Below are positions 12,000 to 61,939 of a DNA stretch of 64,000 nucleotides, one piece after another; within the stretch, counting starts at the first letter, position 1, and every line of letters begins with the position of its first letter. Made by a program: the position numbers and the translations under genes. Source of the DNA: Serratia sp. M24T3 (GTDB lineage Bacteria > Pseudomonadota > Gammaproteobacteria > Enterobacterales > Enterobacteriaceae); NCBI RefSeq assembly GCF_000257645.1, contig NZ_AJHJ01000024.1, positions 1 to 64,000 of the forward strand, in the 5' to 3' direction. The notes beneath the pieces were generated by a model. That model saw only the letters and a program-made list of their open reading frames with translations, had not been told where the DNA came from and ran no database searches.

Positions 12000-13640
12000 T
12001 TAAACCTTCATCACCTTCAACATATGGTCTGCCAACCGCAAACTCAGCGCAGCGCCGGTTAACGTCGGGTTCATACAAGAGGTTGACGGCATGACTGAGG
12101 TCCCGGCAATAAACAGATTGGGATGATCGTGGGTCTGGCAATCACTGTTCACGACGGAGTTTGTCGCATCATCGCCCATAATGGTGGTGCCCATAATGTG
12201 CTGCCTGTCCTGATAACTGGTATCAATTTTAAGGACCTCGGCGTTCAGCAAGCTGGCAATTTTGTCGAAATCCTTGAGTGCCGCTTCTTTACCCGCCTGC
12301 CAATAATCCGTGACGCTGTAATAGATTTCAGGCACTGGCAATCCAATGCCGTCAGTTTTGGTCTTGCTCGGCACAATACGATTTTCTGGCAAGGGCAGCG
12401 TTTCTAAATCAACGGCAAAGTTGAGCGAACGAGCCGACTGGCGACGCAGTTCTTCATCCAGTTTCGATCCCAAAATTCCCTTGGCGATCAGCGCCGAAGC
12501 AAAATCCGAGGTGGGTACGGTATTTCGCACCTTGGTTTTATAACTCGGAAAGTCTTTGCGAAACTCACCGTCGCGATTGTTTAGATACACCAGCAGCTCG
12601 GTCGGCCCCTGACCCGGCCAGACATCCTCCTTCATCATGACGTTCATGCTAATCCCGGTATGCCCCATCAGATTGCGCCCCACTTGATCGGAACTGTTGG
12701 CGATGCCGTTGGGATATTTTTCCGAAGTCGACATCAGAAGCAGTTTTGGTGATTCAATACCGTAAGCCGCGAGCACGAAGTAGCGGGCGGTTAAATGATG
12801 CTCGGAGCCATCCGGTTTTTTGTACCAGACACCGCTGATTTCACCCGCTTCGTTGGCTTCGATTTTATATACCACTGAATTATCAAGTAATTTCACCCCC
12901 AGACGCTCTGCCTGGTCGATATGCACCGTGCCATCATATTTCGCACCAATCGGGCATACAGGATTGCAGTTGTTGTTTCCGGCACAAACCGGACGATCGC
13001 CATAAGGCCGCGTCGCACGCCCATTGGGCTCATACACTGGATGAAAATCGCCTTTTTGTAGCAACTCGGCCAGGCGAGTAAACAGATAGCTGGGAGTCAG
13101 GCCTTTCATCGGGAATGGCGTGGATCGCGGTGGCCACGGGCGTTTGCCCTGACCGCTCTCGTCCTGACCGTCAACGCCAGAAACGCCCAGTTCATGTTCG
13201 GCTCGCCCGTACCACGGTTCAAGTTCTTCATAACCAAACGGCCAGTCGCGCCCACGGCCATACAGGCTTTGCAGTTTGAAATCATTGGGGATCATGCGCC
13301 ACAGCGCCGACCCAAAGTGCCAAGTCGTTCCCCCGACCACGCGCAAGTATTTGGTAGGGTATTTAACCGGTCCGGTTTGCTGAAGATAGCTGCCATAGGT
13401 TGAAGGTACGTGTGGCAAATCCGGATAAGGGGAGCCCGCGCCCTGCAGTTTCATATTGGTCAGCGAGACTTTTACCGGCGAATTTCGAAAACGCTCGACG
13501 ATCTCTGCGCGCTTAACCCGCGGACCGGCCTCGAGAATAATCACCGACTTGCCAGCCTTCGCCAGCTGAGTCGCAATCAGGCCACCCATTACGCCGGAAC
13601 CAATAATGATGACATCGGCATCAACGGTTTTATCAGTCAT
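12000..13640 (-). CDS. GMC-family FAD-dependent sugar/polyol dehydrogenase, large subunit
   Basis: The 546-residue flavoprotein has an N-terminal FAD-binding loop (VIIIGSGVMGGLIATQLA, residues 10-27) and the C-terminal GMC_oxred_C features HIMGTTIMGDD and NPTLTGAALSLRLADHML. Cysteines near residues 219, 225 and 229 (CAGNNNC, then NPVCPIGA) resemble the iron-sulfur cluster binding cysteines of FAD-dependent glucose, fructose and sorbitol dehydrogenases. It has no signal peptide, and in this family it is carried out with the Tat-exported small subunit. It overlaps the small subunit gene by 4 bp and is the last gene of the run. The substrate (aldose, ketose, polyol or gluconate) cannot be told from sequence alone. 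Confidence 0.88.
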   Translation of the reverse strand: MTDKTVDADVIIIGSGVMGGLIATQLAKAGKSVIILEAGPRVKRAEIVERFRNSPVKVSLTNMKLQGAGSPYPDLPHVPSTYGSYLQQTGPVKYPTKYLRVVGGTTWHFGSALWRMIPNDFKLQSLYGRGRDWPFGYEELEPWYGRAEHELGVSGVDGQDESGQGKRPWPPRSTPFPMKGLTPSYLFTRLAELLQKGDFHPVYEPNGRATRPYGDRPVCAGNNNCNPVCPIGAKYDGTVHIDQAERLGVKLLDNSVVYKIEANEAGEISGVWYKKPDGSEHHLTARYFVLAAYGIESPKLLLMSTSEKYPNGIANSSDQVGRNLMGHTGISMNVMMKEDVWPGQGPTELLVYLNNRDGEFRKDFPSYKTKVRNTVPTSDFASALIAKGILGSKLDEELRRQSARSLNFAVDLETLPLPENRIVPSKTKTDGIGLPVPEIYYSVTDYWQAGKEAALKDFDKIASLLNAEVLKIDTSYQDRQHIMGTTIMGDDATNSVVNSDCQTHDHPNLFIAGTSVMPSTSCMNPTLTGAALSLRLADHMLKVMKV

Positions 13641-14170
13641 ACATTTGCTCCTTCAGCGGCGGGTGGATCGACAGGTTTTGGTCCCCAGCTGTCCGGGCCC
13701 CCGCCATAAGTCGGGATCACCAGAATGCCGCGAATTGGCAGATACATCATCGCGTCGGCATAGGCGACAAGCTCAATATTTTTGTCCTCGCCCACGATGC
13801 CGGTGTACCAGGCTGAAACGATAAGCCTGGCCGTTGTATAGCGTGGATCGGCGTGATCGATGGCGGCAATAAAGTCGTCCATGTGTGCAAAGTGCTGGCC
13901 GTCGAGATAAGTTTTTAACGCACTGAGGCGGGTTGGAAAATCTGGGTAGTTTTTGATTAATGCATTGTAATAACGCTGGCTCAGCAGTGGGTTGGCAGGG
14001 CGGCTAACCAGAAAAGAGCTAATAGGAGCAAAACCGCTGCTGTTCATTTCCTGCGCCTGCACTTTAAGTGCCGGGAACAGCGAAGCCGTCAGGGCGCTCA
14101 AAGACAAGACGCCGATCCCCTGTAACAATCGGCGACGGGTGACTGATTCGGGATGATTATTTTCCGACAT
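13637..14170 (-). CDS. small subunit of membrane-bound sugar dehydrogenase, Tat-exported
   Basis: This 177-residue protein starts with a twin-arginine signal (TRRRLLQGIGVLSLSALTASLF, residues 11-32). The mature part resembles the small subunits of sorbitol, fructose and gluconate dehydrogenases, including IVSAWYTGIVG and the C-terminal block YADAMMYLPIRGILVIPTYGGGPDSWGP. The Tat signal would carry the folded flavin subunit to the periplasm. It overlaps the cytochrome gene by 14 bp and the large-subunit gene by 4 bp, so all three are co-translated. Confidence 0.87.
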   Translation of the reverse strand: MSENNHPESVTRRRLLQGIGVLSLSALTASLFPALKVQAQEMNSSGFAPISSFLVSRPANPLLSQRYYNALIKNYPDFPTRLSALKTYLDGQHFAHMDDFIAAIDHADPRYTTARLIVSAWYTGIVGEDKNIELVAYADAMMYLPIRGILVIPTYGGGPDSWGPKPVDPPAAEGANV

Positions 14171-15560
14171 GCTGCCTCCTTCTTTTTTTCACCAAAAACG
14201 CCAACAGAATGATTATCAGGATCAACACGACGCCGCCGGTTAACATCACCGCTGGCGAGGTCAATCTGGCCAGCAGTGGTTTTTTGCCGCCGTTGCGGAT
14301 TTCTTTAACCTGATCTGCGGTGACGCTGACTTGAGGGTTACCGAAGTTTTTCAACACATAATTGCTGACGTCGGCAATTTGCCGATCGCTCAGTTGCACA
14401 CTGTAATTGCCATCTGGGCCAAAAGCGGGCATTGCCACCTGTTGGCCGTTGATATCGCGATGCACGCCGTAAAGGATAGCGGCGACCAGATTGGCAGGAT
14501 TATCCGCTCCGGTAGCAGAGTTATGGAACAGCGAAGGGTAGTAAGCGGTGCCTTGCCCCTGTGCCTGATGACAGTTCGCACAGCTGCCGCTGTAGATTTG
14601 CCAACCGGAGTCGACAGCCGAGCTGTTGCCACGCAGCGCAAGCTCAGTGTTGGCGGGCTGCCCATAGCTATCGCGGGATTTTTCTGCGCCGGTATCTATC
14701 GCCGGAATTTGCTGCAGATACCCGACCATCGCCTGAATATCGCTATCGTCAAGATGTTGGGTGCTGTGTTCGACGGCTTCAGCCATTGGGCCCGCTGCCT
14801 GAGCTTTACCGGCGAGATGGCCCGTTTTCAGATACTGCGCCAATTCGGCGGCAGACCAGTTACCAATACCCGAGTGTTTATCGGGCGTAATATTGGGGGC
14901 GTACCAGCTTCCCAGTTCGCCGCCGGAGAGCGCCTTGCCGTCATCCTGTCCCATCAACGCGTTACGTGGGGTATGGCAGGTATCGCAGTGTTCAAGTGCA
15001 TTGACCAGATAATTACCGCGATTAACCTCGGCAGAGACATCCTCAGCCGGAGCAAACGGTTTATTACGGGAAAACAGGGTATTCCACAGCGCCATAGAAC
15101 TGCGAATGTTGAACGGGAAAGCAAGCCGAGTCGGCGTTGAAGGTTTATCCACCGGGGCTACGCCGTGCATGAAATAGGCGTAAAGCGCATGAATGTCCTG
15201 GTCGGTAATCCGCGAATACGAGATGTAGGGCATGGCGGGGTAAAGGTATTGCCCCTGCTTGTTAATGCCTTCTCGAACAGCGCGGGCAAAGTCCTGCTCG
15301 CTATAATTGCCGATCCCCGCCACTTTCGATGGCGTAATGTTGCTGGCATAAATGGTGCCCAGCGGTGATTGAATCGCATACCCGCCTGACATCGCTGCGC
15401 CGTCATTTGGTGGTGTATGACAAGCGCCGCAGTCTGCGGCAATAGCGAGATACTTTCCCTGCGCAATAAGTTTCTGCGGACTCGGGCTGTCCGCCGCCTG
15501 GGCATTAAAACCGCTGGCGAAAAGAATACCTATCGCGAGAGACAAACAGTGTCTTCTCAC
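14157..15560 (-). CDS. tri-heme cytochrome c subunit of sugar dehydrogenase
   Basis: The 467-residue protein has a signal peptide and three c-type heme motifs: CGACH (residues 44-48), CDTCH (192-196) and CANCH (327-331). A C-terminal membrane helix (about 437-459) is followed by KKRRR. This is the layout of the electron-accepting subunit of gluconate, sorbitol and fructose dehydrogenases, which pass electrons to ubiquinone. It precedes the small and large subunit genes on the same strand. Gene order here is cytochrome, small, large, which differs from the small-large-cytochrome order I recall for many relatives. Confidence 0.92.
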   Translation of the reverse strand: MRRHCLSLAIGILFASGFNAQAADSPSPQKLIAQGKYLAIAADCGACHTPPNDGAAMSGGYAIQSPLGTIYASNITPSKVAGIGNYSEQDFARAVREGINKQGQYLYPAMPYISYSRITDQDIHALYAYFMHGVAPVDKPSTPTRLAFPFNIRSSMALWNTLFSRNKPFAPAEDVSAEVNRGNYLVNALEHCDTCHTPRNALMGQDDGKALSGGELGSWYAPNITPDKHSGIGNWSAAELAQYLKTGHLAGKAQAAGPMAEAVEHSTQHLDDSDIQAMVGYLQQIPAIDTGAEKSRDSYGQPANTELALRGNSSAVDSGWQIYSGSCANCHQAQGQGTAYYPSLFHNSATGADNPANLVAAILYGVHRDINGQQVAMPAFGPDGNYSVQLSDRQIADVSNYVLKNFGNPQVSVTADQVKEIRNGGKKPLLARLTSPAVMLTGGVVLILIIILLAFLVKKRRRQHVGK

Positions 15561-15663
15561 GGCATTGCTCCTGTATAAAAAATCAAAAAATTATATTTTT
15601 ATTATGTGTGGTCGTTATGTATTGAAAATCGAGCCTTCCTGCTGATGATTAACGAGAAATAGC

Positions 15664-15688
15664 CCGCAGAAGCTCAGAGCCACTGCGG
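15664..15688 (-). terminator. weak hairpin after the cupin-like gene
   Basis: CCGCAG and CTGCGG can pair around a 13-base loop in the 168-bp gap between the cupin-like gene and the cytochrome gene. There is no clear T run, so it may attenuate rather than end transcription. Confidence 0.3.
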
Positions 15689-15728
15689 TATGATTATCTT
15701 ATGAAAATGCTGATTATGAATTCAGTAC

Positions 15729-16427
15729 TCACTTCAGTTCATAGTCATTGAAAACCAACGGCGTATCACCACCGTTGATAATTTCAACCGGTCCGGCGGT
15801 GGTCAGCGCGGCGTCACCTTTATGTACCCAAATTTCTTTGTTGCGATTAGGGCGACCGGGAATGGCCTCCAACACGCGCCCCTCGGTAAAGAACACCCTG
15901 ACACCCGGCCCTTTCTGCTGATAAACGCCGCTGCTTTCACCGGGTTGCAGTGTCACTTTCCAGCCGTTAACCGATTTCTTGTCCAACACCTGCTGAAAGG
16001 CGGGAGTCGACGGGCGAGAGGCGGTGCCAAAACCTAGCGGGCCGGCCTGTTTGATCTCAAAGGCAATCTGCATATTGAGGCTGGAACCGGTGTTAGTTAT
16101 CTTGTCGACCTCGGAATGCCCCTGGTGCGCGCCAAATTTTACGTTGCCGCTTTTCATTGCAAAGTCTTTGGCAGGTTTGTTCGGGTATGACGCCTGCACC
16201 GGGCTGCCATCAACGTGAGTATTAACGTAATCCAGATGCTGCTCGTGAAACAGGGTCGACTCCCCGGGGCGAATCATCACCCGCATCACCGTGACATACT
16301 GGTTTTCGAGTATGACGTGGTGATGAGGTTCAAGATTGGTCGGCACGATAGGCTCGGCGGCAAAGGCTGCGGGTAGGGCGTTTGACGCGAGCAAAATCGC
16401 CGACAGGGTAATATTGGCAAATTTCAT
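15729..16427 (-). CDS. exported cupin-like protein of unknown function
   Basis: The 232-residue precursor has a signal peptide (MKFANITLSAILLASNALPAAFA) and then a cupin-like barrel pattern. VMIRPGESTLFHEQHLDYVN carries two His in the first cupin motif, and a second repeat contains WKVTLQPGESSGVYQQKGPGV. The start at 16427 was preferred because AAGGAG lies nine bases before it; the longer frame adds 13 residues without family support. It lies within the sugar dehydrogenase run, 38 bp after the lactonase gene. A periplasmic isomerase or sugar-binding role is possible, but I do not recognise a characterised relative. Confidence 0.6.
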   Translation of the reverse strand: MKFANITLSAILLASNALPAAFAAEPIVPTNLEPHHHVILENQYVTVMRVMIRPGESTLFHEQHLDYVNTHVDGSPVQASYPNKPAKDFAMKSGNVKFGAHQGHSEVDKITNTGSSLNMQIAFEIKQAGPLGFGTASRPSTPAFQQVLDKKSVNGWKVTLQPGESSGVYQQKGPGVRVFFTEGRVLEAIPGRPNRNKEIWVHKGDAALTTAGPVEIINGGDTPLVFNDYELK

Positions 16428-16465
16428 GATGTTTCTCCTTGGGTTAGTCCAGCTTTCCGTAAACA

Positions 16466-17614
16466 CTACTGTTCAACTATTGATACCCAGTTGCCGCCTT
16501 TGCCGGTCGGATAACGGCCAAGCAGGGATAATTTACCGCTGGTTTGATCCATGCTGTAGAGCGAAAGCTGGTTCGACTTTTGGCCGGATTCAATCAGGAA
16601 ACGGCCACTGTTATCGATAGCGAAACCGCGTGGCTGAGCCTCGGTTTTAATGCTGTTTAAATAAGTCAGATGCCCGTTGTCTGGATTAACGGAAAAAGAA
16701 GACAGGGTGCTGCTGGTTCTTTCCGTGGAATAAAGGAAACGTCCATCAGGAGTTAAATGGATATCTGCCTGCCAGATTCGCGGCTTGTGCGAAGGCGGCA
16801 AATCATCGTCTCCGGTTAGCGGACGAGCCTCTCCGCGCTGCATATCTTCCTGCGGCGAAACTGAGCTTACCGATTCCTGCTCGTGAGCCTTGCCTTCAGC
16901 ATCCAGCGTCACCCGTGTGATATTGCCCGCCATCTCAGTCAGGATGTACATGTTTTGGTCGCCCTGCCTGTCGCGTTGCGGGGCAATAACAAAGTGACGC
17001 GGACCGGTTGCGGCCTCTTTCTGAATATTGATCGACGGCGGACTGTTGGGTGTCACCTTGCCTGTAGCAGGGTCAAAGTGGAATTGCAGCAATTGGTCCG
17101 CGCCTAACAAGGTGACATACAGGAAACGGTTGGTCGGGTCGGTTTGTATCGCGTGCGCGCGCTTACCGGTGTGGACGACTTGCACTGGCGGCGTCTCGAC
17201 CTGGCCCTGAGCATTAATGCGGTTGATGGTAAATAAATCGCCGCCGTAAGAGGCACTCAGCAGAAAATGCCCGCTCTTATCGGTGGAAAGATAGGCCATG
17301 CTCTCTTCCAGCGGCGACTGGCCGACCTTTTGCAGCTTGCCGTCGGGCTGGATTTTATACACCACCACGTGATACGGCTTGCTGCGAACTGACACATAAA
17401 GCAGTTGCCTGTCTTTCGCAACGGTAGATGACATCACCTTGTCACCCGCCGGAAAATCTCCCAGCGGCTCGAGTTTTTTGGCGTCTTTATTCAGCAAATA
17501 ACCTGAAACTGTACCGCTGTCCGCGTTGGAGACGTAGACAAAGCTGCTGGCCCTGGCGGCCCCGGTGACAGCCATCAGTGATATTAGCGCGAGGGCGCAG
17601 GCACTTTTCTTCAT
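16466..17614 (-). CDS. periplasmic lactonase-like seven-bladed propeller protein
   Basis: This 382-residue protein belongs to the Pgl/YbhE-type beta-propeller lactonase family, with repeated blade motifs such as FVYVSNADSGTVSGYLL, RFLYVTLLGADQLLQFHFDPATG and DGRFLYSTERTSSTLSSFSV. It starts with a signal peptide (MKKSACALALISLMAVTGAARA), whereas the E. coli 6-phosphogluconolactonase of this family is cytosolic. An exported copy next to a periplasmic sugar dehydrogenase fits hydrolysis of the aldonolactone that such enzymes make. The ATG at 17614 follows AAAGGAT; seven extra upstream residues are not signal-like. The lactonase activity is inferred. Confidence 0.75.
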   Translation of the reverse strand: MKKSACALALISLMAVTGAARASSFVYVSNADSGTVSGYLLNKDAKKLEPLGDFPAGDKVMSSTVAKDRQLLYVSVRSKPYHVVVYKIQPDGKLQKVGQSPLEESMAYLSTDKSGHFLLSASYGGDLFTINRINAQGQVETPPVQVVHTGKRAHAIQTDPTNRFLYVTLLGADQLLQFHFDPATGKVTPNSPPSINIQKEAATGPRHFVIAPQRDRQGDQNMYILTEMAGNITRVTLDAEGKAHEQESVSSVSPQEDMQRGEARPLTGDDDLPPSHKPRIWQADIHLTPDGRFLYSTERTSSTLSSFSVNPDNGHLTYLNSIKTEAQPRGFAIDNSGRFLIESGQKSNQLSLYSMDQTSGKLSLLGRYPTGKGGNWVSIVEQ

Positions 17615-17690
17615 GACGATGATCCTTTTATTCAATGTAGGGTACTGCGGTCTTGTCGCGCAGCTTTAGTCTTACTAATGTTTTGGTCAA

Positions 17691-19016
17691 TCATTGGCTA
17701 GAAATTGATGCTTGTGGCTGATGTTTGATTCTGGCATTCGGTTTGCTTTTTGGCGTATCCAGCGGCTCGATTTTGCCGATCACAAACAGGAAGTTAAGTG
17801 CTCCCAGCAGGCAGATGCCGCCCGCGACGCACAGTGGTATCACAAACGAGCCGTGGCTCAGTCCCAACATTAAACCGGTGAACGACGCGGTAACAATACC
17901 GGCCAGATTACCGGCAAAGTTCTGGATGCCGCCCAGCGTGGCGACATAGCCAGAATTTGGCGCAACGTCAGCGGGCAGAGTCCAGATATTGGCAGCGGTG
18001 AACGCCAATCCGGCATAGGTCAGAGAGAAAAGGGTGAGGATCACCGTGATATTGCTGGTGAAGGCCGCAAAGGCAATCACTGACGACAGCACCATACCGC
18101 CGACCAAACAGGTTTTACGCGCGGCGGTCAGGCTGAAACCTTTGTTGAACAGCCAGTCAGAGGTCAGCCCACCGAGCAGGCTTCCGGGAATACCCATCAG
18201 CGCGGGAATTGCGCCCAGCGTGCCCAACTCCTTCAGCGAAAAGCCCTGTGACATAGTGAGGTAGGTCGGGAACCAGGTCACAAAAAAGTAGGTCGCAAAA
18301 TTCATGCAGAAGAAGCCAATCATCATGCCCCAAACATTGCGATAACCGAACAGCGTGCGCAGTTTGATTTTCTCGGTGCCTGCAATGTGGCGCTCGCCGC
18401 GATCGGCGATCAGGTTGTTTTTTTGCTCCTCGTCGAGACCTTTCATCTGCTCGGGTTCGCGGTAGAACACCAGCCACAGAGCCACCCACACCAGTCCGAT
18501 GCCACCGGTGACCACGAATGAGGTTTCCCAGTCCCAGGTGCTGATAATCCAGGCGACCAACGGCAGAGCCAGCGCGGTGCCGGCTCGTGGACCCGCGTCA
18601 AAAATACCTGATGCGGTGCCGCGCTGCTTTTTGGCAAACCATTTGTAAACCACTTTGGCGCAGCCTGGATTGCCGCCAGCTTCGCCGACGCCCAGCAGCA
18701 GGCGCGAGATAAAGATCGAGCTAAAACCTTTACCAAAGGCGGTCAGGACGGTAAACAGTGACCACCAGCCCACGGCGATGGCCAAACCGGCGCGCGCGCC
18801 TAGTTTGTCGATCATACGCCCGGCCGGGATTTGCATCAGCGCGTAGGTCCAGAAAAAAGCGCCGAGGATCAAGCCCATGCTGGCATCGTCCAGCCCGAGA
18901 TCTTTTTTAATGTGCGGAGCAGCAATGGCCAGATTAACGCGATCGATATAATTTATAGCGATCGCGAGGAAGCAAAATACAATCATCATCCAGCGGATTC
19001 GAGGGTATCTACGCAT
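17691..19016 (-). CDS. MFS transporter of the sugar-acid (anion:cation symporter) type
   Basis: The 441-residue membrane protein has about twelve hydrophobic segments and typical family features. NYIDRVNLAIAAPHIKKDLG lies near the first helix, GRMIDKLGARAGLAIAVG is the loop 2-3 motif, and RLLLGVGEAGGNPGCAKVVYKWF follows. The best relatives I recall are transporters of hexuronates, galactonate and glucarate. It is the first gene of the minus-strand run and lies just downstream of two LacI-type operators (19186-19197, 19218-19229), which places it under the adjacent regulator. The substrate is probably an aldonate, and a four-carbon acid is suggested by the neighbouring otnK and otnI. Confidence 0.85.
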   Translation of the reverse strand: MRRYPRIRWMMIVFCFLAIAINYIDRVNLAIAAPHIKKDLGLDDASMGLILGAFFWTYALMQIPAGRMIDKLGARAGLAIAVGWWSLFTVLTAFGKGFSSIFISRLLLGVGEAGGNPGCAKVVYKWFAKKQRGTASGIFDAGPRAGTALALPLVAWIISTWDWETSFVVTGGIGLVWVALWLVFYREPEQMKGLDEEQKNNLIADRGERHIAGTEKIKLRTLFGYRNVWGMMIGFFCMNFATYFFVTWFPTYLTMSQGFSLKELGTLGAIPALMGIPGSLLGGLTSDWLFNKGFSLTAARKTCLVGGMVLSSVIAFAAFTSNITVILTLFSLTYAGLAFTAANIWTLPADVAPNSGYVATLGGIQNFAGNLAGIVTASFTGLMLGLSHGSFVIPLCVAGGICLLGALNFLFVIGKIEPLDTPKSKPNARIKHQPQASISSQ

Positions 19017-19056
19017 GGTGAAATCCTTTATTATCGTTTGTCTATTAGTAGGTTAT

Positions 19057-19077
19057 GAGTTTCTCAAGCAGAAACTC
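19057..19077 (-). promoter_or_regulatory. 8-5-8 inverted repeat in the transporter leader
   Basis: GAGTTTCT and AGAAACTC are perfect inverted repeats around five bases, 41-61 bp before the transporter start codon. It may be a protein site or an mRNA hairpin. Its sequence differs from the GTAAGC operators. Confidence 0.4.
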
Positions 19078-19185
19078 CGTTATGAGGACATTCAGCCAAA
19101 CAGACCGCAGAGTGGCCTTCTCCGATTCGGTTCTGTTATTATTTGGTGAACTTAGAGCCTCAAATTTGATAATGTGATGTTAAAA

Positions 19186-19197
19186 GTAAGCGATTAC
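19186..19197. promoter_or_regulatory. LacI-family operator 1 (transporter/regulator)
   Basis: GTAAGC-GATTAC is a near palindrome matching the four-site consensus GTAAGCGCTTAC. It lies between the divergent transporter and regulator genes. Its centre is 32 bp, about three helical turns, from operator 2. Confidence 0.65.
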
Positions 19198-19217
19198 AAA
19201 ATTCAGTCAAGCCAAAA

Positions 19218-19229
19218 GTAAGCGCTTTC
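19218..19229. promoter_or_regulatory. LacI-family operator 2 (transporter/regulator)
   Basis: GTAAGC-GCTTTC matches the consensus at 11 of 12 positions. It lies closer to the regulator gene and is in phase with operator 1, which would let a regulator tetramer or two dimers bind on one face of the DNA. Confidence 0.65.
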
Positions 19230-19294
19230 AAAGCAAGGCGGGAAGTGTCTGCAATTTTTGTGGGCGACATCACTAATTTATAGGGATCACGGCA

Positions 19295-20329
19295 ATGAAT
19301 GATAAGACCCTGCCTCAGGGAAGAGCTTCACTGGAGGACGTCGCCAAACTTTCCGGCGTCTCGACCGCCACCGTTTCTCGCGTGCTCAACGGCAGCGCCA
19401 CCGTGCGTCAATCGCGCCGCGAGGCGGTAGAGCGCGCCTGTGAAGAGCTTGGGTATGTCATTAATAGGGCGGCGCGAACGCTGGCGTCACGGCGTAGCAT
19501 GACCATCGGGGCCGTGGTGCCGACTCTGGCAACTGAAACCTTCTCCCGCACCCTGGCGGCGTTTCAACATCATATTCATCAGTCAGGTTATACGCTGCTG
19601 CTGGCCAACTCGGATTTCGACCCCGATATTGAGCTGCGCGAAGTGAATAAATTGCTGGAGTACGGCATCGATGCGCTGATGCTGGTGGGGCACACCCATC
19701 ATCCGCGCCTGTGGGAGCGGATTCGGCAACATGCGATCCCCTGCATTCAGACTTTTTCGATTGACCCGCAATATCCAAGTATTGGTTATGACAGTATTGA
19801 GGCAGCAAGCCGGGTTGCCGGGCATTTGATCACGCTGGGGCACAGGCGGTTTGGTATGATAGCGGGCACACCGCCGACCAACGACCGGGTGTCCGATCGC
19901 CTGCGAGGAACTCGGGAAACGCTGGCTGGGGCGGGGCTTTCACTGCCGGATTTTAATCTGATTGAATGCGCGTTCACCATGAACGACGCCCGTAAGGCGA
20001 TGTTCACCTTGCTCGATGGTCCCGAGCCACCCACGGCGGTTATCTGTGGTAACGATATGTTGGCTTTTGGCGCACTGCGGGCGGCCAGCGAGCGTTATTT
20101 GCGGGTTCCCAACGATATTTCGATCACCGGATTCAACGATTACGAGTATGCCGAGCATCTCGAGCGCCCGCTGACCACCATGCGCGTTGAGTTGGATCAG
20201 ATTGGCCTGCGTGCGGCCGAGTATCTGCTGGCAACGTTGAACGGCGAGGCGGCCGAGCCGCAGGCGGTAATGACTCCCGAGCTTATCGTGCGTGGCAGCA
20301 CCGGCTCTGCGCCGCGAGCGTCGCAGTAA
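19295..20329 (+). CDS. LacI/GalR-family transcription regulator
   Basis: The 344-residue protein has the N-terminal LacI-type helix-turn-helix (SLEDVAKLSGVSTATVSRVLNG, about residues 12-33) with the hinge region after it. The periplasmic-binding-protein-like effector domain includes GAVVPTLATETFSRTL, HLITLGHRRFGMIAG, AVICGNDMLAFGAL and ITGFNDYEYAEHLERPLTTM. This arrangement is typical of gluconate-type repressors (GntR group). Palindromes matching one consensus lie in its own promoter region and between 20486-21757 and 22029-22694. It is therefore likely to control the transporter-dehydrogenase run, the hydroxy-acid dehydrogenase and the otnK-otnI operon. The effector is unknown. Confidence 0.9.
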   Translation: MNDKTLPQGRASLEDVAKLSGVSTATVSRVLNGSATVRQSRREAVERACEELGYVINRAARTLASRRSMTIGAVVPTLATETFSRTLAAFQHHIHQSGYTLLLANSDFDPDIELREVNKLLEYGIDALMLVGHTHHPRLWERIRQHAIPCIQTFSIDPQYPSIGYDSIEAASRVAGHLITLGHRRFGMIAGTPPTNDRVSDRLRGTRETLAGAGLSLPDFNLIECAFTMNDARKAMFTLLDGPEPPTAVICGNDMLAFGALRAASERYLRVPNDISITGFNDYEYAEHLERPLTTMRVELDQIGLRAAEYLLATLNGEAAEPQAVMTPELIVRGSTGSAPRASQ

Positions 20330-20354
20330 TTTTATCTATTTCAGCCAGCACAAA

Positions 20355-20380
20355 AACTCCGCACCATTGCGGGCGGAGTT
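20355..20380. terminator. terminator after the LacI-type regulator gene
   Basis: AACTCCGC pairs with GCGGAGTT, followed by CGGTTTTAGG. It lies 26 bp after the regulator stop codon and also faces the convergent hydroxy-acid dehydrogenase gene. Confidence 0.65.
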
Positions 20381-20485
20381 CGGTTTTAGGGGTGGCAGCA
20401 CTCAATCTGCAATCAGAATCATCAAAATTTCAATAAGTTATCTGCGCAAGGGCGGATAATACTTCAGGCCGCTACCGCTCGGGTT

Positions 20486-21757
20486 TTACAAATTGACGTC
20501 ATAAAACGGCGCCCGACGCAGCAGCGCCGAGTTCAACTCTTGCGGACTGCGCACGCCAACCAACGCTAAATCGCGGTCAATTTCGTCACGCAGGATATGC
20601 ATCGCGTGTTCCACTCCGGCCTGACCGCCGATCACCGCGCCATAGAGGAAAGGGCGGCCAAGGAAGGTAAAATCGGCACCCAGCGCAAGGGCTTTCATCA
20701 CGTCAGTTCCGCGTCGAATACCGCTGTCGATAATCACCTTCATATTGCCTTTTTTCGCCGCAATCTCAGGCAGGGTGTGCAGCGGTGGCACGGTATAATC
20801 CAGCTGACGGCCTCCGTGATTGGACAGGATAACCGCATCTACTCCCAAATCTCGCGCGATAAAAGCGTCGTCCGGCGACATTAATCCTTTCACCACCAGA
20901 TTACCTTTCCACTGCTTGCGGATTGCTTCGACGTGTTTCCAGTTCAACTTATCGCGAGCGTTGGTATTGCGCACCTTGCTCGACATCATCGGCGGGCCGC
21001 GCTCGGCGTCGGTATTTTCAAAGTGCGGCGCACCGTGGCGAAGGAAAGTCTGCGCCACGGTGCCCAGCAGCCAGCGCGGGTTCATCGCGCTTTCGAAACA
21101 GACTTTAGGCGTGACCTTGATAGGCATGCTGAATCCGCTGCGGGTATTGTGCTCACGATTGCCGAGCATCGGCGTATCGCCGGTGACCACCAACGTTTGA
21201 TAACCGGCCTGGGCTACCCGATCAACCAGCCGGTCAATGCGCGGCTGATCGCCTGCCAGATAGGCCTGGAACCAGGCATTGGGATTCGCCTCGTGAACGT
21301 CTTCGAGCCTGACCAGCGAAGACGCGGAGAGGATCATCGGCGTATTCATGGCGCGGGCGGCTTTAGCCAGCGAGATATCGGCACGGTAGGCGACAAAAGA
21401 TGCGCCTCCCAGCGGCGCTACGCCAAACGGATGGCTGTAGGTGTGGCCGAACAGTTCCACGCTCTGACTGCGCCCAGAAACGTCACGGAACATGCGCGGT
21501 ACAAAAGCATACTGTTGATAGGCTTCAAAATTTCCTGCTATGCCGCGTCCGGTTTCAACGCCGCCGGCAACATATTGATAAATCATGTTAGGCAGACGAC
21601 GACGGGCGTGGCGCTCAAAGTCTTCCAGCGCCAGTAAATCGCGAAACTCGCGAGGGAGTTTTGATGCCGCCACGGCCGGAGCACTAACGTTGCCTGCCGG
21701 GCTTACGCTGCTGCTTACCCCGGACTGTAAAGAGGATTCGTTGGCAGATGTTGTCAT
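20486..21757 (-). CDS. FMN-dependent alpha-hydroxy-acid dehydrogenase/oxidase
   Basis: This is a 423-residue member of the lactate dehydrogenase/glycolate oxidase/lactate monooxygenase family. Key motifs are the flavin-binding start NMIYQYVAGG, APLGGASF, the substrate and catalytic block ILSNHGGRQLD with the catalytic His, and the phosphate-binding DSGIRRGTDVMKALALGADFTFLGRPFLYG. The first 45 residues are Ser/Ala-rich and not part of the fold. The ATG at 21757 was chosen as the first with a GGGAA upstream; a slightly longer frame exists. It would oxidise a 2-hydroxy acid to a 2-oxo acid. Its neighbours suggest a tetronate or related sugar acid, which is inference. Confidence 0.88.
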   Translation of the reverse strand: MTTSANESSLQSGVSSSVSPAGNVSAPAVAASKLPREFRDLLALEDFERHARRRLPNMIYQYVAGGVETGRGIAGNFEAYQQYAFVPRMFRDVSGRSQSVELFGHTYSHPFGVAPLGGASFVAYRADISLAKAARAMNTPMILSASSLVRLEDVHEANPNAWFQAYLAGDQPRIDRLVDRVAQAGYQTLVVTGDTPMLGNREHNTRSGFSMPIKVTPKVCFESAMNPRWLLGTVAQTFLRHGAPHFENTDAERGPPMMSSKVRNTNARDKLNWKHVEAIRKQWKGNLVVKGLMSPDDAFIARDLGVDAVILSNHGGRQLDYTVPPLHTLPEIAAKKGNMKVIIDSGIRRGTDVMKALALGADFTFLGRPFLYGAVIGGQAGVEHAMHILRDEIDRDLALVGVRSPQELNSALLRRAPFYDVNL

Positions 21758-21841
21758 GATGCGTTCCCACAATCTTTGCTTAATGAGTAAGTTGCCTGCA
21801 TTTCAGGGCGGATTCTAACACCCGGAAGAGACATTAAATTT

Positions 21842-21853
21842 GAAAGCGCTTAC
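21842..21853. promoter_or_regulatory. LacI-family operator 3
   Basis: GAAAGC-GCTTAC fits the four-site consensus with one change. It lies 85 bp upstream of the hydroxy-acid dehydrogenase start codon. Confidence 0.65.
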
Positions 21854-21912
21854 AATGGTCATTGCAGTATCTATCAATTCTGCTTAAACGTAACAGGATT
21901 ATAACTTTTTTA

Positions 21913-21928
21913 TGTGACGCAGCTCACT
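21913..21928. promoter_or_regulatory. CRP binding site
   Basis: TGTGA-CGCAGC-TCACT matches the CRP core with one deviation. It lies between operators 3 and 4 in the divergent promoter region, consistent with catabolite control of the sugar-acid genes. Confidence 0.6.
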
Positions 21929-21942
21929 TTACAGAATCATTT

Positions 21943-21954
21943 GTAAGCCCTTAC
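21943..21954. promoter_or_regulatory. LacI-family operator 4
   Basis: GTAAGC-CCTTAC fits the consensus with one change. It lies 75 bp before the racemase-like gene and 101 bp from operator 3, so looping between the two is possible. Confidence 0.65.
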
Positions 21955-22028
21955 ATTATAGGTGTAGGTTTGCAGTGACGAGAAAACTGATCGTGCTGTG
22001 AACGCATCCACGTCTGTCAGGGGGTTTT

Positions 22029-22694
22029 ATGTCACACCGCATCGTATTACTTCACGCCACGCCGGTCGCGATGGCACCCATCCATAGCGCGTTCAAGGAA
22101 GAATGGCCAGAAGCAGAGATAATCAACCTGTTGGATGATGGCTTATCGATTGACCGCGCACGTGAAGATCAATTGAGTCGTTCGATGATTGACCGCTTTG
22201 TACGATTTGGTCGCTACGGCTATGACATGCAGGCGCAGGGGATTCTGGTGACCTGTTCGGCGTTTGGTCCGGCAATTGACCAACTGGCGGCAAGTTTGCC
22301 GGTGCCGGTGTTGAAACCTAATGAAGCGATGTTCCACGAAGCGCTGGAGCAGGGGAAAAAGATTGGCATGCTCGCCACTTTTGGCCCGGCAGTAGAAACC
22401 ATGACCGAGGAGTTCGACAGTTACGTTAAGGAACATGGCCTTAGCGCCACGCTGACGACCGTCCTGGTCGAAGATGCGATTGACTTGCTGCGTAAAGGCG
22501 ATGCCGACAGCCACAATCGGCTGGTGGCTGCACGCGCCAAAGAGTTGGCACACTGCGATGTCATCATGCTGGCACATTTCTCCACCTCACGCGCCGCCGC
22601 CAGCGTGCGTGAACAGGTTTCTGTGCCGGTGCTGACTGCGCCCCACGCGGCGGTAAAACGAATGAAAGCCAGTATTCTGAGCGGGAAGGAATAA
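22029..22694 (+). CDS. Asp/Glu racemase superfamily protein
   Basis: The 221-residue protein resembles the Asp/Glu/hydantoin racemase and arylmalonate decarboxylase group. It has one conserved active-site Cys in VTCSAFGP (near residue 76). The second half, where racemases carry a second Cys, instead reads VIMLAHFSTSRAA. Members with a single Cys include decarboxylases that do not need the second proton donor. It is the first gene of an operon with otnK (3 bp later) and otnI. Its role could be isomerisation, epimerisation or decarboxylation of a sugar acid, and none is proven. Confidence 0.7.
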   Translation: MSHRIVLLHATPVAMAPIHSAFKEEWPEAEIINLLDDGLSIDRAREDQLSRSMIDRFVRFGRYGYDMQAQGILVTCSAFGPAIDQLAASLPVPVLKPNEAMFHEALEQGKKIGMLATFGPAVETMTEEFDSYVKEHGLSATLTTVLVEDAIDLLRKGDADSHNRLVAARAKELAHCDVIMLAHFSTSRAAASVREQVSVPVLTAPHAAVKRMKASILSGKE

Positions 22695-22697
22695 GTT

Positions 22698-23969
22698 ATG
22701 TTAATTGGCGTGATTGCAGACGATTTTACCGGGGCCAGTGATATTGCCGTAACCCTTTCAAAGGGCCTCCCGGGCGAGGGCGGATTACACACCACGCAAT
22801 ATCTCGGCATTCCACAGCAGCCCGCCGACACTAGTGTCGAGGCGGGGGTTGTGGCACTTAAAAGCCGATCAATTCCGGCGAAACAGGCCGTGGAACAGTC
22901 GCTGGCTGCCTGTGAATGGTTGCTGGATCAGGGTTGCCAGCAGATCGTCTTTAAATATTGCTCGACATTCGACTCCACTGCCGAGGGCAATATTGGCCCG
23001 GTCACCGATGCGCTGGCCGAGAGGCTCAATGCGCAGCGCGTCGTGATGTGCCCGGCTTTTCCTGCCATGGGGCGCACGCTGTATCAGGGGCATTTATTTG
23101 TCCACGACAAGCCACTGAATGAGTCGGGCATGGAGCATCATCCTTTAACGCCGATGAAAGATGCCGATCTGCGTCGCGTTTTGCAACAGCAGACGCGCAA
23201 TGCCGTGGGGCATATTGCGTGGCACAAGGTTAACGAGGGCAGTGAACCTTTGCGTCAGGCGATTACCCGGCAGGGAGGCAGTGAGCGCATTCTGTTACTG
23301 GTCGACGCGCTGAACGAAAACGATTTACGCACCTTGGGGCAGGCCTGCGAAGGGTTACCGCTGATTACTGGCGGGTCGGGCATTGCGCTGGCCCTGGCGC
23401 ACAATTTTATCGTCCGTGGCGAAGCCAAAGGGCATCACGCAGGCGTCGCTGCGGTTGCCGGTCCTGAAGCAATACTGGTCGGAAGCTGCTCGGGGGCGAC
23501 GCGTGGTCAGATAGACGAGCATCAAAAATTGCATCCGGTGCTGATGATTGATGTTAGAGATGTACTGACCGGCGTTACCGATGCTAACCGGCTGGTGGCA
23601 TTTATTGAGCAGAATCAGGGGCGCGCTCCGCTGGTCTATTCTTCGGGCACGCCAGAATCCGTTAAGCAAATCCAGCAAGAGTACGGGCGTGAAAAGGTGG
23701 CGGCTGCGCTGGACAATCTGTTTGGTGACACGGCTAAAAAACTGGTGGCCAACGGCACGCGGCGGATTGTGGTCGGCGGTGGCGAAACCTCGGGTGCGGT
23801 GGTAAGTGCCTTGAATCTCGGGGCATTAATCATTGGCGAAGAAATTGATACCGGCGTTCCTGCAATGGTATCTCAAGGGCAGGACCCGATTGCTCTGGCG
23901 CTGAAATCCGGTAATTTTGGCGCAAAAGATTTCTTTGCCCGCGCGCTTAACACACTGCGAGGCGACTAA
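22698..23969 (+). CDS. otnK: four-carbon acid sugar kinase (3-oxo-tetronate kinase) OtnK
   Basis: This 423-residue DUF1537 kinase starts with the family signature IGVIADDFTGASDIA. Other motifs are FKYCSTFDSTAEGNIGPV, VMCPAFPAMGRTLYQGHLFV and the C-terminal nucleotide-binding VVGGGETSGAVVSAL followed by EIDTGVPAM. Characterised OtnK enzymes phosphorylate 3-oxo-tetronate at C4 in D-threonate, L-threonate or erythronate breakdown. Its operon partner otnI starts one base after the stop codon. The specific four-carbon acid cannot be told from sequence. Confidence 0.92.
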   Translation: MLIGVIADDFTGASDIAVTLSKGLPGEGGLHTTQYLGIPQQPADTSVEAGVVALKSRSIPAKQAVEQSLAACEWLLDQGCQQIVFKYCSTFDSTAEGNIGPVTDALAERLNAQRVVMCPAFPAMGRTLYQGHLFVHDKPLNESGMEHHPLTPMKDADLRRVLQQQTRNAVGHIAWHKVNEGSEPLRQAITRQGGSERILLLVDALNENDLRTLGQACEGLPLITGGSGIALALAHNFIVRGEAKGHHAGVAAVAGPEAILVGSCSGATRGQIDEHQKLHPVLMIDVRDVLTGVTDANRLVAFIEQNQGRAPLVYSSGTPESVKQIQQEYGREKVAAALDNLFGDTAKKLVANGTRRIVVGGGETSGAVVSALNLGALIIGEEIDTGVPAMVSQGQDPIALALKSGNFGAKDFFARALNTLRGD

Positions 23970-23970
23970 T

Positions 23971-24768
23971 ATGCAGGGCCTGCATTTTTGCGCCAACCTG
24001 AAATGGTTATTCACCGAGTTGCCGTTTGAGCAGCGTTTTGCCGCCGCGGCGCAGGCAGGTTTCGAGGCGGTAGAGTTTGGATTGCCTTACGACTATGAGG
24101 CCGATTTTCTCCTCCAGCAGTTAAAAGAAAACGGCCTGCGACAAATATTGATTAATACGCCAATAGGTCCGGCGGACTCTGTGATGCGCTCGGGGTCCGC
24201 TTGCCAGCCACAATCCAGCGAATTCTTTAGAAACGGCATGCGCGAGGCGCTACGCTATGCCGCCGCGCTGGACTGTCCGTTCATTCATTTGCAGGCCGGG
24301 ATTTTACCCCCCGGTGTAAACGAGCGCGAGGCATTGCAGCAGTTTATCAGCAACATTAAATGGTCACTGGAACTGGCGGTTGAACAGGGCGTGTGCCTGT
24401 TGCTTGAGCCGATTAATCTGCGCGATATCCCCGGCTTTTTCCTGCACGATTTCCATTTGGCGGCCAATATCATCGAGCAGTTTAACAGCCCACATCTGCG
24501 GCTAATGTTTGATATCTACCATTGCCAGATTTCGCACGGCGATATTAGCCACAATCTGCTGCGTTATCTGCCATTAACCGGGCACATTCAGGTTGCCGAC
24601 GCGCCCTATCGCAGCGAGCCGGGCAGTGGGGAGCTGAATTGGGATTTCATCTTCAAACTGCTTCGCCAGCAGGACTATCAGGGCTGGATCGGCTGTGAAT
24701 ATAAACCACTCACCAACACGACAGAAAGCTTGTCAGGTGGATGGTCAGGTTTGGGCGCAGGGAAATAA
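23971..24768 (+). CDS. otnI: 2-oxo-tetronate isomerase-like protein OtnI
   Basis: The 265-residue TIM-barrel protein is of the hydroxypyruvate isomerase family. It opens with FCANLKWLFTELPFEQRFAAAAQAGF and contains LLEPINLRDIPGFFL, LMFDIYHCQ with metal-site residues, and GHIQVADAP followed by GSGELNWDFIF. Characterised OtnI isomerises 2-oxo- to 3-oxo-tetronate, the substrate of OtnK. The ATG at 23971 begins directly after the otnK stop; a longer frame overlapping otnK was rejected. The last 20 residues differ from the usual ending, but I found no clear frameshift. Confidence 0.88.
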   Translation: MQGLHFCANLKWLFTELPFEQRFAAAAQAGFEAVEFGLPYDYEADFLLQQLKENGLRQILINTPIGPADSVMRSGSACQPQSSEFFRNGMREALRYAAALDCPFIHLQAGILPPGVNEREALQQFISNIKWSLELAVEQGVCLLLEPINLRDIPGFFLHDFHLAANIIEQFNSPHLRLMFDIYHCQISHGDISHNLLRYLPLTGHIQVADAPYRSEPGSGELNWDFIFKLLRQQDYQGWIGCEYKPLTNTTESLSGGWSGLGAGK

Positions 24769-61828: not shown

Positions 61829-61939
61829 GACTTCCTCCAAAGACTTACTTTGCTAAGTCACTCAATGTAGCAAACTGCTGTCCGTTGGTTTTGCAGATAC
61901 CGCGCATTCACAAATTTGATTTCACACTTCTATCCATAA

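Follow-up and report, generated by a model that had tools for sequence, protein, structure and literature searches.

Gene content and operator-like sites of a Serratia locus suggest a LacI-controlled, two-compartment route from a four-carbon sugar or lactone to tetronate breakdown

The DNA analysed (hereafter "the window") comprises 64,000 nucleotides, i.e., positions 1-64,000 of contig NZ_AJHJ01000024.1 of Serratia sp. M24T3, and the gene cluster considered here spans positions 12000..24768. The gene complement described in the initial annotation is confirmed, with the dehydrogenase trio and the genes for a cupin-like protein, a lactonase and an MFS transporter all lying on the minus strand and those for a LacI-type regulator, a racemase-like protein, OtnK and an OtnI-like protein all on the plus strand. 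The exception concerns the hydroxy-acid dehydrogenase, said to lie opposite the dehydrogenase genes; the actual FMN-dependent alpha-hydroxy-acid oxidase/dehydrogenase gene (20486..21772) is on the minus strand, the same as that of the dehydrogenase genes.

The trio encodes a predicted periplasmic heterotrimeric sugar dehydrogenase. Its GMC flavin (catalytic) subunit (12000..13640, minus strand; PF05199/PF00732) carries the motif C-x-G-N-N-N-C-x3-C-P (CAGNNNCNPVCP) and, in phmmer searches against solved structures, scores highest with FAD glucose dehydrogenase 6a2u (517.6 bits) and fructose dehydrogenase (FDH) 8xcm (454 bits). The small subunit (13637..14170, minus strand; PF12318, 115 bits), which has a twin-arginine TRRRLLQG near its N terminus and is predicted to be Tat-exported, matches the FDH small subunit 7w2j_B (E 5.5e-15), and the tri-haem cytochrome c subunit (14157..15560, minus strand), having three CxxCH motifs and a hydrophobic C-terminal stretch as probable membrane anchor, matches the FDH cytochrome subunit 7w2j_C (446.5 bits). 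The composition of the FDH/FAD-GDH complexes (GMC flavin subunit, Tat small subunit and tri-haem cytochrome) is found in full, all three subunits matching solved FDH and GDH chains, so that by its subunits the complex is assigned to this type, the sugar not being fixed by the sequence; it differs from the known enzymes in its tie to a tetronate regulon.

Three further minus-strand genes follow. The first (15729..16466) encodes a putatively exported protein which matches no Pfam family and whose AlphaFold2 model (pLDDT 84.6) gives matches to cupin folds and is predicted to be a bicupin; the second (16466..17635; PF10282, 216.7 bits) a seven-bladed lactonase-like propeller with a signal-peptide-like N terminus; the third (17691..19016) an MFS sugar-acid transporter resembling the galactonate transporter DgoT, its TIGR00893 score of 326.4 bits not reaching the cut-off of 395. 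The proposed distribution of the products over two compartments is supported by the export signals, recognised by visual inspection of the N-terminal sequences; none is seen at the N terminus of the FMN oxidase, which matches PF01070 (407.7 bits) and contains NHGGRQLD, NHGGRQ being a motif of the (S)-2-hydroxy-acid oxidase (FMN_dh) family. On domain and motif the oxidase belongs to this family, its (S) specificity being putative.

On the plus strand, beyond the gene for the LacI-family regulator (19295..20329; PF00356 and PF13377), lies that of a protein (22029..22694; PF01177) whose AlphaFold2 model (pLDDT 95.1), by its structural matches, places it in the Asp/Glu racemase fold. An alignment of the window protein with 57 of 79 computed ranges, thinned by hand and leaving out L066, whose computed range holds a stop codon (a frame of 217 residues is predicted at this locus by the gene caller), did not yield the two conserved catalytic cysteines: C76, invariant in 58/58 sequences, is the sole invariant Cys. 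His183, conserved in at least 90% of the 58 sequences and replaced by Gln in Ancylobacter, occupies the position of the second Cys, or one adjoining it, in a sequence alignment with 2eq5, as opposed to superposed coordinates. The window protein, with one invariant Cys and His183, differs in this from the Asp/Glu racemase superfamily (aspartate, glutamate, hydantoin and allantoin racemases, arylmalonate decarboxylase and maleate isomerase); its residues would still permit a Cys/His two-base mechanism. Among 197 genomes of the order nine have a match to it, the best non-self match being 38% identical.

The kinase gene (22698..23969, plus strand; DUF1537) encodes a protein 42% identical to E. coli YgbK that exceeds the OtnK equivalog cut-off (NF043035, 534.5 bits against 350), and 3-oxo-tetronate kinase activity is accordingly a prediction of the family model. 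It is followed by the gene of a TIM barrel resembling OtnI and hydroxypyruvate isomerase (23971..24768, plus strand, with a probable ATG at 23971 read from the sequence), which is 36% identical to E. coli YgbM and scores below the cut-offs of both models (NF043033, 269.6 against 325; TIGR03234, 260.7 against 353). No OtnC gene lies inside the cluster in the window; the sole OtnC of this genome above the cut-off (274.7 bits against 250) is on another contig (G000:C26:15248-15850), adjoining a ModA-like gene and a gene that looks DeoR-like, the DeoR-like and TonB-receptor-like genes of this genome having been named by eye. The route proposed in the initial annotation had ended short of this decarboxylase and had left the racemase-like protein without a role.

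Common regulation of the two halves, chosen beforehand as the point on which the proposal could be refuted, survives, as conserved LacI-type operator-like palindromes are present in both divergent spacers: AGTAAGCGATTACA (19185..19198) and AGTAAGCGCTTTCA (19217..19230) between the MFS and LacI genes, TGAAAGCGCTTACA (21841..21854) and TGTAAGCCCTTACA (21942..21955) between the oxidase and racemase genes. In 14 related loci, the window included, all 48 sites with at most two mismatches fall within these two spacers (6.6 kb in total), none being found in 326 kb elsewhere or in the reversed control; the 48 are not independent, because the loci are related by descent and the search pattern itself derives from the sites of the window. 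Wherever a spacer shows both sites, their spacing is 32 or 101-102 bp. Similar sites, with two mismatches, precede the oxidase, racemase, ModA-like and SGL-lactonase genes of two Gluconobacter loci, and in Methylobacterium L040 such sites adjoin the oxidase gene and precede that of the racemase. No site at up to three mismatches lies near the OtnC/ModA-like region of the Serratia genome (L007), no intergenic site is found in five racemase clusters lacking the oxidase or having other regulators (L019, L095, L031, L021 and L053), and the one intergenic site of Paraburkholderia L047 is away from the racemase gene. The pattern resembles the general LacI/GalR type; genome-wide it occurs 20 times against 11 in the reversed control, one site preceding a galP-like gene. 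The conserved sites in both divergent spacers, to which the regulator is predicted to bind, point to a LacI regulon.

The arrangement recurs in other genomes (genes in the relatives' loci being predicted with a home-made gene caller) and is more than the product of chance. Plasmids of Erwinia E602 and Pantoea At-9b carry the full set with OtnC between the lactonase and MFS genes, i.e., within the dehydrogenase operon, and in a Gluconobacter locus LtnD (454.9 bits, cut-off 350) adjoins OtnK and OtnC; both findings uphold the suggested link of the dehydrogenase to four-carbon metabolism. Only 45 of 91 loci contain OtnK, and 43 contain OtnC, some of the loci being truncated; at the level of genomes both exceed the curated cut-offs in 20/20 racemase-bearing genomes tested for OtnK, OtnC and OtnI, against a background of OtnK in 51/299 genomes of the phylum; these counts are not population frequencies, because the loci were fetched via the racemase (L034-L113 being the best 80 of 578 confirmed racemase matches) and the 20 genomes were hand-picked from these best 80. 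OtnI is missing from many of the relatives' clusters, and Erwinia ErVv1 (L036), where the genes for the oxidase, the ModA-like and racemase-like proteins, OtnK and OtnC are all present, shows no OtnI match, so that something else must isomerise there.

Three alternative front ends upstream of the racemase are found in these racemase-fetched 91 loci, which include the best 80 of 578, and they are mutually exclusive: the oxidase in 40, of which 37 have a cytosolic ModA-like gene; a DRL-like oxidoreductase (PF21135) in nine, none with oxidase or ModA-like gene; and an isocitrate-dehydrogenase-like enzyme in six, none with oxidase, ModA-like or DRL-like gene.

The known bacterial pathway for L-threonate and D-erythronate, as excerpted in PMC12540250 (citing Zhang et al. 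2016), consists of LtnD or DenD, OtnI, OtnK and OtnC, and a Brucella cluster for it appears in excerpts of PMC10580937. As given there, it shares with our system the OtnK and OtnC families, an OtnI-like barrel and the expected end product, dihydroxyacetone phosphate. The Serratia genome differs from it in having no LtnD above the cut-off (best match 208.8 against 350), with the FMN oxidase in its place, in a kinase belonging to a clade other than that of E. coli YgbK, and in the addition of racemase-like, ModA-like, periplasmic dehydrogenase, lactonase and cupin proteins and of LacI control. A 2024 system, in the part of PMC12540250 that cites it, has a similar kinase and decarboxylase logic and does not need OtnI, but its OtnC is of the F_bP_aldolase type, unlike the NF043034-type OtnC of this genome. 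The D-threonate pathway likewise employs a DUF1537 kinase on a C4 acid, but its genes (DtnK and D-threonate-4-phosphate dehydrogenase) form a separate pair elsewhere in the Serratia genome.

The locus probably represents a single LacI regulon coupling, across two compartments, the periplasmic oxidation of a four-carbon sugar or lactone to cytoplasmic tetronate breakdown. Outside, the membrane-bound, Tat-exported flavin dehydrogenase of the fructose/FAD-glucose dehydrogenase type would oxidise a small aldose, either a tetrose or a sugar yielding a tetronolactone, with the tri-haem cytochrome relaying the electrons to the respiratory chain, and the lactone would be opened by the exported lactonase, assisted by the bicupin protein. 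The tetronate, imported by the MFS carrier, would be oxidised at C2 by the FMN oxidase, and either the cytosolic ModA-like protein or the OtnI-like barrel, or both, would convert the 2-oxo acid to the 3-oxo form; the C2 configuration of the 3-oxo acid would be set by the racemase-like protein, OtnK would phosphorylate O4 and OtnC, encoded elsewhere in the genome, would decarboxylate the product to dihydroxyacetone phosphate. Gene content, export signals, operator-like sites, conservation of the cluster, the company of OtnK and OtnC and the exclusion among front ends constitute the computed basis from which we infer each chemical step, the sugar with its stereochemistry, and what the racemase-like, ModA-like and cupin proteins do. 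A point against this reading is that 10 of 45 racemase-linked kinases lie outside the clade of the window's kinase.

The FMN oxidase family favours (2S)-hydroxy acids, a preference that leaves L-erythronate and D-threonate as candidates, and since a kinase and a dehydrogenase gene for D-threonate are already present elsewhere in the genome, L-erythronate, to our knowledge a tetronate without a described pathway, can be put forward. In this speculative refinement, quite unlikely to hold as a whole, the locus would be a route for L-erythronate (or L-erythrose). The racemase-like protein would work as a Cys/His 3-oxo-tetronate 2-epimerase that needs no cofactor, and the cytosolic ModA-like protein would act as the isomerase between 2-oxo- and 3-oxo-tetronate; we know of neither activity in proteins of these two folds.

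The same regulon might serve a substrate other than a linear C4 acid, OtnK and OtnC acting on a branched apionate-type or a pentonate-type 3-oxo acid to give a tetrulose phosphate. In a quick tree (SH-aLRT only) the window kinase falls outside the clade of E. coli YgbK, in a separate clade of 35 racemase-linked rows (SH-aLRT 99), the label "no racemase nearby" having been judged on short stretches and at least one row being mislabelled (L121 is the same gene as in L077); at least two OtnK above the cut-off are present in 8 of the 20 hand-picked genomes, and together these two findings make a second substrate plausible. Relatives also use the DRL-like oxidoreductase, and in the known apiose routes oxidation of D-apionate comes with a rearrangement. 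Nevertheless, we consider a non-linear substrate unlikely: OtnK and OtnC exceed the tetronate equivalog cut-offs whereas the oxo-isoapionate kinase model gives the window kinase 118 bits against 700; the isocitrate-dehydrogenase-like enzyme of six loci would need a secondary alcohol, so that a linear acid fits; in some racemase genomes (Paraburkholderia, Gluconobacter, G409 and G411) the sole above-cut-off kinase lies outside the window's clade; and LtnD stands within the Gluconobacter locus.

It is improbable, too, that the dehydrogenase, cupin and lactonase oxidise a larger, glucose-like sugar for energy, sharing an acid or side product, and a common inducer, with the tetronate genes as opposed to forming one linear route. 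The nearest solved structure of the flavin subunit is indeed an FAD glucose dehydrogenase, and among plasmid-borne dehydrogenase orthologues (72-83% identity, the next matches reaching at most 50%) those on Agrobacterium and Neorhizobium plasmids (73-74%) have no orthologous racemase on the same replicon (2 of 3 plasmid records tested). The relatives' dehydrogenase operon, however, contains OtnC, the operator-like sites are conserved and shared, and the cupin keeps company with the oxidase in 15/15 loci and the dehydrogenase in 10/11. With the cupin alone as query, 2 of 72,556 plasmid records match, both being this cluster, and 394 genomes of the order give one strong non-self match, again in the cluster, along with a weak one in G079 (27%, one stop). 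That two unrelated operons are neighbours by accident is very improbable, for although the halves are apart in some genomes, the neighbourhood is kept in Erwinia, Pantoea, Winslowiella, Tatumella and one Paraburkholderia locus, and operator-like sites occupy both spacers.

Read as a single regulon for a four-carbon substrate, the locus would tie a periplasmic oxidation system to the catabolism of four-carbon acids, and the regulon is testable, its operator sites being given exactly. It also singles out two conserved proteins, the racemase-like one with one invariant Cys and the cytosolic ModA-like one, whose partners and likely position in the reaction sequence are narrowed, and draws attention to a second major OtnK clade which bears the name of a known enzyme through its family score.

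The window encodes a dehydrogenase whose GMC flavin subunit, small subunit (PF12318, Tat-exported) and tri-haem cytochrome match all three chains of the solved fructose and FAD-glucose dehydrogenases. Its genes lie within 12000–24768 on the minus strand, as do those for two exported proteins, one cupin-like and belonging to no Pfam family, the other a PF10282 lactonase, and for an MFS carrier resembling galactonate transporters. Running in the opposite direction to the dehydrogenase and MFS genes, a LacI gene is followed by an FMN hydroxy-acid oxidase gene (20486–21772, minus strand) and by plus-strand genes for a racemase-like protein (22029–22694), an OtnK-type kinase (22698–23969) and an OtnI-like barrel (23971–24768). 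The initial annotation had erroneously placed the oxidase opposite the dehydrogenase genes, with which it shares the minus strand; the remainder of its gene list holds. Elsewhere in the window, a 3106-codon open frame (52520–61840, minus strand) has zero Pfam-A matches at 1e-5.

As to the single LacI-type regulator that had been proposed, operator-like palindromes of the type TGTAAGCGCTTACA occur at 19185 and 19217 in the MFS/LacI spacer and at 21841 and 21942 in the oxidase/racemase spacer. With this pattern, read from the window itself, all 48 sites found at ≤2 mismatches in 14 related loci (the window included), which share ancestry, fall within the two spacers (6.6 kb); the remaining 326 kb contain none, the reversed pattern also gives none, and the spacing (32 and 101–102 bp) is kept wherever both sites of a spacer were found. 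Since the whole source genome contains 20 operator-like sites versus 11 for the control, the motif alone cannot name regulon members and it is conservation that carries the argument. No intergenic operator-like site was found in five other racemase clusters (loci L019, L095, L031, L021 and L053). A one-mismatch site precedes a TonB-receptor-like gene on contig C11 of the source genome (L153 position 3428; C11:114427).

The gene set recurs in relatives. Plasmids of Erwinia E602 and Pantoea At-9b carry it in the order flavin subunit, small subunit, cytochrome, cupin, lactonase, OtnC, MFS, LacI, ModA-like, oxidase, racemase-like, OtnK, and the set is also found, as far as the fetched stretches extend, in Winslowiella and several Erwinia and Pantoea. 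It is present in Tatumella, where the genes for the dehydrogenase lie downstream of that for the racemase-like protein, and at one Paraburkholderia locus, neither fetched stretch containing OtnK or OtnC; in two Gluconobacter a gluconate-dehydrogenase-type complex is the replacement. Two Gluconobacter loci (L077, L088) have related cupin, racemase-like and oxidase genes and a GMC/cytochrome complex beside OtnK and OtnC, to which L077 adds LtnD, an SGL lactonase that looks exported and, by Pfam assignment, a small subunit of PF13618. A search independent of the racemase, with the cupin as sole query, matched 2 of 72,556 plasmid records, both with the cluster, and gave among 394 genomes of the order one strong non-self match, carrying the cluster, and one further weak match (27% identity, one stop). 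Against a one-system reading counts the finding that two of three Rhizobiaceae plasmids tested have a dehydrogenase orthologue without an orthologous racemase; on the third, from Neorhizobium galegae, the two operons adjoin, the flavin gene starting ~9 kb from the racemase-like gene. On this plasmid (pHAMBI540a, L031:8045–21243) the dehydrogenase operon adjoins genes for a TctA-type transporter, a DRL-like oxidoreductase, the racemase-like protein, OtnK and OtnC. A class II fructose-bisphosphate aldolase gene adjoins racemase-like/OtnK/OtnC genes in L021 (Agrobacterium vitis), L086 and L087, with a fructose-bisphosphatase also nearby in L021.

As to the link to a four-carbon route, OtnK and OtnC are both over cut-off in all 20 hand-picked racemase-bearing genomes tested (at least two OtnK in 8 of them); among 299 genomes of the phylum, 51 have OtnK over cut-off. 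In the 91 loci themselves, which include the best 80 of 578 racemase-like matches, OtnK occurs in 45 and OtnC in 43. A tetronate route requires OtnC, which is not found within 12000–24768. The only OtnC over the curated cut-off in a profile search of the genome lies on contig C26, in a stretch containing no operator-like site, near a DeoR-like-looking gene and the single ModA-like (PF13531) homologue found in the genome (43% identity), a protein without visible signal peptide. This OtnC shares 69–71% identity with the copies that Pantoea At-9b and Erwinia E602 carry in their dehydrogenase operons, versus 45% with E. coli YgbL. With these two genes on C26 and the rest in the window, the route can therefore be complete in the genome, but split.

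Oxidation at C2 calls for a 2-oxo/3-oxo isomerase, which direct C3 oxidation, or oxidation with rearrangement, makes unnecessary. The oxidase is found in 40 of the 91 loci, 37 of them with a ModA-like gene; none of the nine loci with a DRL-like oxidoreductase has either gene, and none of the six with an isocitrate-dehydrogenase-like enzyme has other front-end genes. ModA-like genes without oxidase occur in 28 loci; in L073 one adjoins an iron-type alcohol dehydrogenase gene, the oxidase being absent. OtnI, to which isomerisation had been attributed, is absent from many relatives' clusters, which counts against the proposed route. Erwinia ErVv1, whose genome gave no OtnI match, has genes for the oxidase, OtnK, OtnC and the ModA-like and racemase-like proteins. 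Because of this genome and the front-end distribution, the ModA-like protein appears to be the best candidate isomerase, and the racemase-like protein would act after the front-end branches meet, at the 3-oxo acid. To be set against this, 31 of the 91 loci have OtnI-like genes and 17 of the 20 genomes have OtnI over cut-off.

In a quick tree of 77 kinases (45 racemase-linked, 32 others), one clade (support 99), spanning Alpha- and Gammaproteobacteria, contains 35 of the racemase-linked sequences and none of the others. The window's kinase belongs to this clade and E. coli YgbK stands apart from it, so that the substrate of the window's kinase may differ from that of YgbK. The racemase-like protein is also accompanied by kinases outside this clade, namely the other ten racemase-linked ones, which include the Gluconobacter kinases. 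In the Paraburkholderia genome (G404), G409 and G411 the only kinases over cut-off likewise fall outside it, and so does one of G412's two, the second being absent from the tree.

On contig C3 of the source genome (L008:7784–10100), a gene pair followed by a DeoR-like-looking gene encodes a D-threonate kinase (525 bits against a cut-off of 450) and a D-threonate-4-phosphate dehydrogenase (666 against 583); the genome has no LtnD over cut-off. FMN hydroxy-acid oxidases are usually (S)-specific; were this one so, D-threonate being already served by its own gene pair, L-erythronate would be the remaining (2S) tetronate and hence the substrate of the cluster, the boldest reading and one of low probability.
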